Positions 32,211 through 44,350 of a stretch of 64,000 nt of DNA are shown piece by piece (position 1 is the stretch's first letter; each line of letters opens with the position of its first letter). The DNA is taken from the NCBI GenBank assembly GCA_947479055.1, contig CANJYE010000014.1, positions 1 through 64,000 on the forward strand. Direction: 5' to 3'. Made by a program: the position numbers and the translations under genes. The stretch comes from Erythrobacteraceae bacterium (GTDB taxonomy: Bacteria; Pseudomonadota; Alphaproteobacteria; Sphingomonadales; Sphingomonadaceae). The notes beneath the pieces are model-generated. The model did no database searches. It was given only the letters and a program-made list of their open reading frames with translations, and was not told the origin of the DNA.

Positions 32211-33866
<1,656 letters not shown>

Positions 33867-33893
33867 GCTCCAACGCAAGCTTTCGCGAGAATT

Positions 33894-33925
33894 AAGGGTC
33901 GGAGGTCAATCCTCCGGCCCTTTTT
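33894..33925 (+). terminator. Rho-independent terminator of groESL
   Basis: aagggtcggagg (33894-33905) pairs with cctccggccctt (33911-33922) around the loop tcaat, followed by a T run. Confidence 0.92.
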
Positions 33926-34051
33926 CGTGCCTGTGGCGGGCCGGATCAACGCCTCGTCGCTAAGCGGGACTCGGCTCGTCGCGACGGCCCTTGCGCCGCT
34001 ATCCAGCCCGATTAAGCAATTCCACATAATAATTCTGTTAGATCGGGATTC

Positions 34052-39333: not shown

Positions 39334-39591
39334 ATGCCATTCGCGTTCGATCCGGCAAAGGATGCCGCAAATATCGCCAAGCATGGGCTGTCCCTTGGCG
39401 ATTTTGGCGGTTTCGACGACGAGCCAGTGGTGGCGGTCGATGATCGGCTGGACTACGGCGAAGTTCGTTATCGCGCCTTTGGCCGGGTGCAAGGTGAGGG
39501 GCGCTGCCTTGTGTTCACCAGGCGCGATGGCGTTATGCGGCTGATAAGTTACAGAGCCGCGCGCGAGAAGGAATTGAGGCGTTATGAGTAA
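39334..39591 (+). CDS. brnT: BrnT-type toxin (toxin-antitoxin system)
   Basis: An 85-residue RelE-fold ribonuclease toxin. The BrnT pattern is clear: F-A-F-D-P-A-K-D-A-A-N-I-A-K-H-G, then R-Y-R-A-F-G-R-V-Q-G, L-V-F-T-R-R-D-G and R-L-I-S-Y-R-A-A-R-E-K-E. In the family this cleaves RNA and is neutralised by BrnA. It overlaps brnA by 8 bp. The promoter-like sequence before it resembles one before the beta-lactamase-fold gene. Confidence 0.9.
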   Translation: MPFAFDPAKDAANIAKHGLSLGDFGGFDDEPVVAVDDRLDYGEVRYRAFGRVQGEGRCLVFTRRDGVMRLISYRAAREKELRRYE

Positions 39592-39856
39592 GATCAGGCC
39601 ACCGCAAGACTTCGACGAGAACCCGGAGTGGACCGAGGCCGACTTCGCTCGTGCCCGTCCGGCCGGCGCAGTGCTGGGTGCATCGCTGGCCAAAACGCTT
39701 GTCCGCCCCCGTGGCCGCCCGGCGCTTGCCGCAACCGAACGCAAGGCCAAGATCAATATCCGCCTGTCGCCCGATGTTATCGCTGCACTGCGGGCAACCG
39801 GATCAGGATGGCAGACCCGGGTGGATCAGATCCTGCGCAAGGCGTTTGTGAAGTAA
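39584..39856 (+). CDS. brnA: BrnA-type antitoxin
   Basis: A 90-residue partner of BrnT. The N-terminal part binds the toxin (D-F-D-E-N-P-E-W-T-E-A-D-F-A-R-A). The C-terminal ribbon-helix-helix (I-N-I-R-L-S-P-D-V-I-A-A-L-R, then W-Q-T-R-V-D-Q-I-L-R) binds DNA and normally represses the operon. Gene order toxin-antitoxin and overlap are as usual for brnTA. It ends 2 bp from the convergent higA. Confidence 0.9.
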   Translation: MSKIRPPQDFDENPEWTEADFARARPAGAVLGASLAKTLVRPRGRPALAATERKAKINIRLSPDVIAALRATGSGWQTRVDQILRKAFVK

Positions 39857-39858
39857 CC

Positions 39859-40155
39859 TCAAGCCGCCAGATACCGCTCCACAGCAACATCCCCTTCCCG
39901 CTTGCGGGCTTCGGCAATGTCCCATGCGGTCTGCATCCGCAGCAGCGTGTCCATCTTCACGCCGAACGCTTTTTCGATGCGCAGCGCCATTTCCGGCGAG
40001 AGGCCGCCGCGCTCGTTCATCAGGATCGACAACGTCTGGCGGGTCACGCCGAGCACTTTCGCGCCCGAGGAGACATTCAGGCCATGGCCTTCGATAATCT
40101 CGCGCACGAACGCGCCGATATGGGCGGGCCTATGCATGGCGATTTCGGTGCTCAT
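39859..40155 (-). CDS. higA: HigA-type antitoxin
   Basis: A 98-residue HTH-XRE antitoxin. The opening H-R-P-A-H-I-G-A-F-V-R-E-I-I and helix-turn-helix S-G-A-K-V-L-G-V-T-R-Q-T-L-S-I-L-M-N-E-R fit HigA/VapI. The ATG at 40155 has GAGGAG 10 bases upstream; an internal Met seven codons later is also possible. It follows the toxin gene by 14 bp, the usual higBA order. Confidence 0.9.
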   Translation of the reverse strand: MSTEIAMHRPAHIGAFVREIIEGHGLNVSSGAKVLGVTRQTLSILMNERGGLSPEMALRIEKAFGVKMDTLLRMQTAWDIAEARKREGDVAVERYLAA

Positions 40156-40169
40156 CAGTGCCAAGCTCC

Positions 40170-40412
40170 TCAATGATAGTCCTCAAGGTCGAGAATGCGA
40201 ATTTCCTGTGCTGCGTCATCGACTTCGAAGGTGAGGCGGTAATTTGCCGTGACGTGGAAGCTCCAACGCCCGTCACTCAACTGGTGCGCCTTCCAGAAGG
40301 AAAGGTTCCGGCATTCGTCACTATGATTCATGCCGATCAGAAAAGTGATCCGGACGCGCAGTTTGCCGACAAAGCGCGCCAGGTTCTTGTGACGAATCGA
40401 GACGATTCTCAC
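40170..40412 (-). CDS. higB: HigB-type toxin, short form
   Basis: An 80-residue RelE/HigB-fold toxin that in the family cleaves mRNA on ribosomes. The start I-R-H-K-N-L-A-R-F and the C-terminus S-F-H-V-T-A-N-Y-R-L-T-F-E-V and L-D-L-E-D-Y-H match the family. Between A-R-F and V-G-K-L-R the usual 15 or so residues (helix 1-2 loop) seem to be missing, and the W-K-A-H-Q-L to W-S-F-H segment is also shorter. It may be a deletion variant with weak or no toxicity. The antitoxin gene downstream is intact. Confidence 0.8.
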   Translation of the reverse strand: MRIVSIRHKNLARFVGKLRVRITFLIGMNHSDECRNLSFWKAHQLSDGRWSFHVTANYRLTFEVDDAAQEIRILDLEDYH

Positions 40413-42913: not shown

Positions 42914-42945
42914 AAAAAAAGGACCCGGACGTTGCCGTCCGGGCC
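42914..42945 (-). terminator. Rho-independent terminator with seven-T tail, minus strand
   Basis: An 11-bp stem (ggacccggacg at 42921-42931 against cgtccgggcc ending 42945) with loop ttgc on the plus strand gives a minus-strand hairpin ending TTTTTTT at 42920-42914. No coding gene ends just upstream on that strand, which is the main evidence for the small RNA. It lies 140 bp before the CDC48-like start. Confidence 0.85.
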
Positions 42946-43046
42946 TTGGAAGTTTTGGGAGAGGATGCCTGAAAGGCAGGTTCTGAATGATCGAATTCGC
43001 ATCACTTCGCAAGTGCGAAAAAATCAAACCGCGTTGCATAATTTGC
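42914..43046 (-). ncRNA. Putative small RNA with CU-rich loop and strong terminator
   Basis: No convincing protein lies between the CDC48-like gene and scoA. On the minus strand a TATGAT box (43053-43058) is followed by an AT-rich stretch, a small hairpin tgcct-ttc-aggca, a single-stranded CU-rich stretch tcctctcccaaaacttcc, and a terminator hairpin ggcccggacg-gcaa-cgtccgggtcc with TTTTTTT (42914-42945). CU-rich loops that pair with ribosome sites and U-tailed terminators are typical of alphaproteobacterial Hfq-type RNAs. A weak 89-codon frame on this strand runs through the terminator and is rejected. The -35 element is unclear (TTGATT is 21 bases away). Confidence 0.45.
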
Positions 43047-43346
43047 AACTTAATCATAGTCCCGGATTAATTGGCCTAGAATCAAATGTATAAATATTAG
43101 ACGGGTTTTACGTGGAATCCCCTAGCGGAGCCCGTTCCGGAATCTCGGCCGAATATTGTGCGTCGCACCAATTCCAGCGAGGCACCCGGAATTCTGTGGC
43201 CACCTGGCCACGAACACCAAACGGCCTGTCAGAGTGCGCAACCCGAGCCGCTGCGCAAATTGATGACAGAATCGCGCCGGCACGTTATGCGCATCGCACC
43301 ATTTCTTTCGCGCCCGCAACAAGGGGCAGCGATACAAGGGGGCAGA

Positions 43347-44054
43347 ATGAACAAGCTCTATCCCGATGCTTCCACCGCGCTGGAAGGCCTGCTGCACGAC
43401 GGCATGCTGATCGCCGCCGGCGGTTTCGGCCTTTGCGGCATTCCCGAGCGGCTGCTCGACGCGATCCGCGACAGCGGGGTCAGGGACCTGGTCTTTGCCA
43501 GCAACAATGCCGGGATCGACAACGAAGGCATCGGCAAACTGCTGCGCACCCGCCAGGTCCGCAAGATGATCTCCTCCTATGTCGGCGAGAACAAGGAGTT
43601 CGAACGGCAATATCTTTCGGGTGAGCTCGAGGTCGAATTCTGCCCACAAGGCACACTGGCCGAGCGGATGCGCGCGGGCGGCGCGGGGATTCCCGGCTTC
43701 TACACCCGCACCGGCGTCGGCACCCAGGTGGCCGAAGGCAAGGAGGTGAAGAATTTCGACGGGGAGGATTACATCCTCGAACGCGGCATTTTTGCCGACC
43801 TGTCGGTGGTCAAGGCCTGGAAGGCGGACGAAACCGGCAATCTCGTGTTCCGCAAGACCGCGCGCAATTTCAACCTGCCCGCCGCCACCTGCGGCAAAAT
43901 CTGCATCGCCGAGGTGGAAGAAGTGGTGCCCAAGGGCAGCCTCGATCCCGATTCGATCCATTTGCCCGGCGTCTATGTCCAGCGCATCATCGTCGGGGCG
44001 CCCTATGACAAGAAGATCGAATTCCGCACCACCCGCAAGAGAGAAGCGGCCTGA
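43347..44054 (+). CDS. scoA: Succinyl-CoA:3-ketoacid CoA-transferase subunit A
   Basis: Alpha subunit of the enzyme that activates acetoacetate with CoA from succinyl-CoA, allowing use of ketone bodies and PHB-derived acetoacetate. It has 235 residues from ATG 43347 after AAGGGGG (M-N-K-L-Y-P-D-A). Family segments: [22 protein letters not shown] and F-Y-T-R-T-G-V-G-T. The ATG of the next gene overlaps the stop (TGATG). The 290 bp upstream contains a gtggcca-cc-tggccac dyad and an AT-rich promoter-like stretch. Confidence 0.95.
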
Positions 44055-44350
44055 TGGCGAAGGATTATACCGAACTGGCGCTGGGCGGGATCGAGCACAC
44101 GATCGCCAACAGCGACGAGATCGTCCGCATCTTCATGGGACGCGGCGGCCCCGCCACCTACATGGTCGATGCCGCCCGCATTACCGAACCCTTCATGCTC
44201 GGCATGATCTGCGCCGACCTCACCCGCCACGGCGCGATGGCCTTCGCCCATGCCAAGGGAATGGACCCGCAGGAAGCGCTCGAAGCGATCATCGCCGGCC
44301 TCTGGGCCGAATTGCAGAATCCCACCGATCCCATCGGGGAGCCCAACTGA
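44054..44350 (+). CDS. DUF5076-like protein inside the sco operon
   Basis: A 98-residue soluble protein between scoA and scoB, overlapping each by a base or so, so the three are translated together. Pattern: [12 protein letters not shown] ... [20 protein letters not shown], then a helix and A-E-L-Q-N-P-T-D. This resembles the DUF5076 family; function unknown. It has no signal peptide or membrane segment. The location suggests a role with the CoA-transferase, but that is inference. Confidence 0.75.

Follow-up and report, generated by a model that had tools for sequence, protein, structure and literature searches.

Does the seven-T terminator that lies downstream of no gene in the window (the whole 64,000-nucleotide stretch of DNA analysed here) end a small RNA, as the original prediction claimed, and if so, where does that RNA begin and to what family does it belong? 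We find that the claim of a small RNA gene is borne out on the minus strand, and we hold with high confidence that the interval from about 42978 to 42914 is the gene for a SuhB-type member of the alpha-r8/MmgR sRNA family (RF00519), this being the best joint explanation of the family match, the conserved RNA anatomy, the conserved promoter, the synteny and the sibling copies. In an Rfam scan of the whole window, RF00519 (suhB/MmgR, the alpha-r8 sRNA family) matched at 42984-42907 on the minus strand (55.1 bits, cut-off 41; E 1.3e-8 for all families and the whole window) with an alignment spanning model positions 1-77 of 77, and it was the sole family to reach the curators' threshold in the window. 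The match carries the family's full anatomy: a 5' hairpin, an exposed CU-rich anti-Shine-Dalgarno core and a rho-independent terminator. Side matches to the Rfam families CC0196, ctRNA_p42d and a Betaproteobacteria sRNA each fell far under their own cut-offs and were set aside; a control search with RF00519 also gave a match in Thermus composti, outside Alphaproteobacteria, which may be chance. The sRNA gene is real and well conserved, but the family is already known from many alphaproteobacteria; what is gained is one more copy, with its start and length corrected, of a kind of sRNA that couples gene expression to carbon status in the members studied.

The predicted RNA (~65 nt, 42978-42914 on the minus strand) was delimited by the RF00519 match, an alignment of 36 sequences that includes the window copy, and the position of the -10 element, and both of its ends are predicted ones, the 5' end deduced and the 3' end set at the terminator's final T. 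It opens with the hairpin TGCCTTTCAGGCA (42978-42966), the small hairpin of the original prediction, whose GCCT/AGGC stem has four pairs identical in 36/36 aligned sequences. Next comes a single-stranded CU-rich anti-Shine-Dalgarno stretch, tcctctcccaaaacttcc (42965-42948), recognized by conservation of its core and predicted to be the mRNA-pairing region; it is the stretch that the original prediction called complementary to ribosome sites. The RNA closes with an intrinsic terminator (42945-42914, from pattern and covariation), made of a GC-rich hairpin at 42945-42922 and seven T at 42920-42914, the predicted Hfq-binding 3' end. Random drift of the CU stretch, named originally as a sign against a regulatory RNA, is absent: TCCTC[T/C]C is present in 56/56 RF00519 loci fetched, and the SuhB-type core form GGCATCCTCTCC in 42 of these 56.

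Comparison of the hairpins, a check that the original prediction had proposed, showed that the terminator covaries, with both-side changes in at least one sequence at 6/8 predicted terminator pairs among the 36 aligned SuhB-type sequences. These make up all of the covarying pairs (6/12 predicted overall), every one within the terminator stem; the small hairpin's four pairs, being invariant, are uninformative on covariation either way. The alignment took in 36 of 42 SuhB-core loci, chosen partly for GGCATCCTCTCC, so the invariance of those letters, including part of the 3' side of the hairpin, is by choice. The terminator pattern alone was no more frequent in the region than expected by chance (1 found, shuffles mean 1.6), and the case therefore rests on comparison. 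Directly upstream of the terminator on the minus strand no protein gene is likely, in agreement with the original description, and only mechanical open frames occur there; the 89-codon frame 43057-42788 (-) was ruled out as a gene because, from one relative to the next, the spacing between the conserved boxes and the RNA shifts by single bases.

Upstream of the RNA lies a conserved promoter, TTGCGA-17-CATTCA (43012-42984, minus strand), in which the -35 element TTGCGA (43012-43007; TTGCAC in many relatives) and the -10 element CATTCA (42989-42984) are separated by a 17-bp spacer; a second palindrome, TTCGCACTTGCGAA, sits within the promoter and outside the predicted RNA. Both elements were read from a logo of 41 aligned promoters (41 of 42 loci; L010 was left out for its weak box), whose conserved blocks keep a fixed spacing: first the distal repeat, then the TTTCGCACTTGC box, then a -10 in which one A never changes, and last the beginning of the hairpin. 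Across 110 distinct copies, the second position of the -10 is A in 94. This spacing places the start near 42978 and hence gives an RNA of about 65 nt, a length predicted from the promoter and terminator positions that falls within the ~60-80 nt of the family. Counting against this best explanation, the -10 of the window copy departs from the CATATA-like majority of its relatives.

The RNA gene has two neighbours: downstream, on its own strand, a gene for a CDC48-like AAA ATPase (start 42774), and upstream the divergent scoA, a CoA transferase subunit gene. Using our own model, we found suhB (E 8.6e-15 or better) in 30 of the best 80 of 588 named scoA loci, which come from Croceibacterium, Erythrobacter, Novosphingobium, Sphingomonas and others. 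Within these best 80, the flank contains the ATPase gene, downstream on the same strand, in 28/30 loci that bear suhB and in 0/50 that do not (some flanks being short), and thus the ATPase, suhB and scoA tend to stay together. The ATPase gene itself (42774-40465, minus strand) has an in-frame TAG at 42537-42535, between a CDC48_N part of 79 codons and a 665-codon frame; a strict motif located this place in 10 of the best 80 of 588 named loci, and as all 10 are open, intact copies exist. The TAG may be a strain mutation or a sequencing error. On the other side, a DUF5076 protein gene (44054-44350, plus strand) directly follows scoA and precedes an apparent second CoA-transferase subunit, named by eye.

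Three RF00519 copies were found in the genome: one on contig C27 (58.2 bits), the window copy (55.1 bits) and one on contig C24 (38.3 bits, below the cut-off). The window and C27 copies have the core CAUCCUCUCCCAAAAC, and the C24 copy has the canonical CUUCCUCCCUGAAC. Flanking the C27 sibling are a gene for a CorA-like transporter and a radical SAM gene; the canonical copy (L202:2135-2212, plus strand) lies between a SapC gene and an N-formylglutamate amidohydrolase (FGase, PF05013) gene, a location that PMC12559287 describes as usual for the family, in most species. This linkage, usual and not required, is not seen at the window copy, placed as it is between the ATPase gene and scoA. Own genome included, 35/40 genomes searched as relatives match RF00519 at E 0.001, and 228/249 genomes of the family match at E 0.001 or better, with 201/249 above the cut-off; the loci from both searches are best-scoring matches only, and the 249-genome search used stricter filters by which weak matches were lost. 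Weak matches to our own model (in L097, second matches in L054 and L036, and window positions 33851-33928; E 0.0018-0.048) were dropped as probable chance.

Beyond the core promoter, two conserved elements precede the window copy on the minus strand: an inverted repeat, GTTGCAAATTATGCAAC (43049-43033), drawn from the relatives' promoters, centred at about -64 from the predicted start and a candidate regulator site, and the box TTTTCGCACTTGC (43021-43009), which overlaps the -35 and is conserved in SuhB-core copies. The repeat, GTTGCA-N5-TGCAAC, occurs in 99/110 distinct SuhB-type promoters, 83-86 nt upstream of the anti-Shine-Dalgarno core (at most 3/12 mismatches allowed; mononucleotide shuffles mean 0.1), these 110 sequences being mutually related and hence not independent. 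We found it in 40/42 SuhB-core vs. 0/14 canonical-core copies, and the TTTTCGCACTTGC box, within 4 mismatches, in 42/42 vs. 0/14; as 13/14 canonical copies come from other families, the sole in-family one being the C24 copy of this genome, the difference may be one of family no less than of RNA type. Multi-copy genomes supplied 40 extra stretches (the repeat and PhaR-core counts took GGCATCCTCTCC copies only), and among the 53 SuhB-type copies examined there, 45 retain the repeat and 34 have the -35 box with at most 2 mismatches, which makes the box the less widespread of the two.

Within its own genome, the repeat has exactly two exact copies and so does the TTTTCGCACTTGC box, in both cases one before the window copy and one before the C27 copy, and these two SuhB-type siblings are therefore probably controlled together. 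We tentatively go further, at slightly short of an even chance, and propose a sphingomonad SuhB-type branch with an altered core, CCUCUCCC, whose scattered siblings would form one co-regulated set through a position-fixed operator (GTTGCA-N5-TGCAAC near -64, plus the TTTTCGCACTTGC box at -35 in many copies) and a transcription factor that reads it, possibly of LysR type. The T-N11-A spacing of the repeat and its place near -64 are features that we take to resemble those of LysR-type activators. The position-fixed repeat is possibly unreported, although it may be in print already. The promoter shared with the sister copy is the most interesting part of the locus and worth follow-up, as a shared operator could be used to track down the regulator through which growth rate and PHB stores may be coupled to SuhB in sphingomonads; as far as a review of the tetralin pathway describes it (PMC6563040), both affect suhB expression, the factor going unnamed there.

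The original prediction had placed the start after a TATGAT box and expected a transcript near 133 nt. The box exists (43058-43053) and is good as a -10 hexamer, and the 140 nt from 43046 to 42907 form a more stable fold than their own shuffles (-46.6 kcal/mol, z -3.61), as a longer sRNA starting after 43058 would have it. However, of 110 distinct upstream sequences (that of the window copy among them), only 9 have a TATAAT-like hexamer within 2 bases of the same offset, under the shuffle mean of 13.6; TATGAT is thus not conserved, such hexamers being rarer in relatives than in shuffles, and a ~133-nt transcript, about twice as long as the one predicted here, is not supported. Moreover, the conserved boxes from 43049 to 42984 keep the fixed spacing typical of a promoter, and the studied relatives are described as 61 nt (SuhB of Sphingopyxis granuli, PMC6563040, vs. 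~65 nt predicted here) and 77 nt (MmgR), so that the longer RNA strikes us as very improbable. A simple consensus promoter scan detected neither promoter here; this, too, counts against our best explanation, but the scan does not discriminate between the two starts. We give equally little credence to the idea that the terminator and CU stretch are an untranslated leader or attenuator of the ATPase gene (start 42774, same strand) with no free-standing sRNA: the frequent downstream ATPase gene (28/30 suhB-bearing scoA loci, as above) speaks for it, but the C27 sibling keeps both RNA and promoter with no ATPase gene in its 1.5-kb flanks, and members of the family are described as acting in trans (PMC6563040, PMC12559287); some transcripts may nonetheless run on into the ATPase gene.

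A free-standing sRNA of about 65 nt could also be under the control of PhaR (AniA) sitting on the -10, as in Sinorhizobium, which would link the window copy to polyhydroxybutyrate stores. The S. meliloti mmgR promoter is described as bound by PhaR/AniA, which represses MmgR, and the core TGCRNYGCA, 22-45 nt before the CU core and over or near the -10, occurs in 27/110 distinct copies (shuffles mean 0.2), so some of the family seems to be under PhaR control; phaR is present in this genome as well, with PhaR-like sites before the phasin gene and phaR. Unlike S. meliloti MmgR, however, the window copy has no PhaR site over its -10 by a 21-bp weight matrix, its best site scoring 6.3 (p 0.20) and lying upstream, and its C27 sibling scores 0.2. 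PhaR was found in 242/249 genomes of the family, and 6/7 without a PhaR match retain a suhB match, so the presence of PhaR says little about how suhB is distributed. PhaR control of the window copy was rejected on the matrix result, and we regard this reading as unlikely. The PhaR-like operators elsewhere in the genome, two strong ones before the phasin gene (L150 positions 2409 and 2457) and a weaker one before phaR (L113 position 1767), suggest a working PhaR circuit.

If the SuhB-type sRNA is expressed as we propose, transcription would begin at the sigma-70-like promoter TTGCGA-17-CATTCA and stop at the seven-T terminator, to yield an RNA of about 65 nt. By analogy with studied members of the family, this RNA would most likely bind Hfq through its 3' U-tail, its exposed CCUCUCCC stretch would most likely pair with purine-rich ribosome sites on mRNAs for metabolism and transport, and such pairing would most likely block translation of these predicted targets. 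The plan of an Hfq-dependent regulatory RNA, as first suggested, gains support from membership in RF00519, as MmgR, SuhB of Sphingopyxis granuli and SisA-D are described as Hfq-associated regulators (PMC6563040, PMC12559287). A single open frame of 198 codons in the same genome (contig C5:12417-12845; L203, L204) encodes two Hfq domains, an arrangement described for Zymomonas and another six species of Sphingomonadales (PMC2877685), and the genome also encodes PhaR, phasin and PhaC. Ranked by duplex energy against 96 others, the scoA, phasin, phaR and phaC start regions did not stand out in their predicted pairing with the CU stretch and so yielded no target (rank fractions 0.20, 0.58, 0.50 and 0.06, respectively), a background taken from the window's mechanical open frames of at least 150 codons rather than from curated genes, and those start regions paired no better than their own shuffles (medians -14.2 and -15.8 kcal/mol).

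Studied members of the family in alphaproteobacteria are described as tuning carbon metabolism. SuhB of Sphingopyxis granuli TFA, from another sphingomonad, shares the Rfam family name, on which its kinship to the window copy rests here; its described target is thnR, of the tetralin pathway (PMC6563040). With MmgR of Sinorhizobium meliloti (RF00519), described as Hfq-dependent, the window copy has in common the family model, the hairpin, the anti-Shine-Dalgarno core and the terminator plan, whereas its core reads CCUCUCCCAAAACUU vs. CCUCCCUAGACUU in the Rfam consensus of RF00519/MmgR; accounts of MmgR, as far as they go, give no direct mRNA target, which counts against our best explanation. 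SisA-D of Caulobacter crescentus are likewise several siblings per genome with an anti-Shine-Dalgarno core, an FGase gene neighbours one canonical sibling in both genomes, and base pairing of SisA with a target is described there as shown by compensatory mutation (PMC12559287). For SisA-D, that report, as far as its account extends, gives no conserved promoter motif, in contrast to the two exact boxes common to the SuhB-type siblings here.

Farther along the window, beyond the ATPase gene, lie two small gene pairs (39334-39856, plus strand, and 39859-40412, minus strand) that by eye look toxin-antitoxin-like, BrnT/BrnA-like and HigB/HigA-like; in the second pair, 39859-40173 carries an HTH_3 domain, and its 80-aa partner is without a Pfam match.
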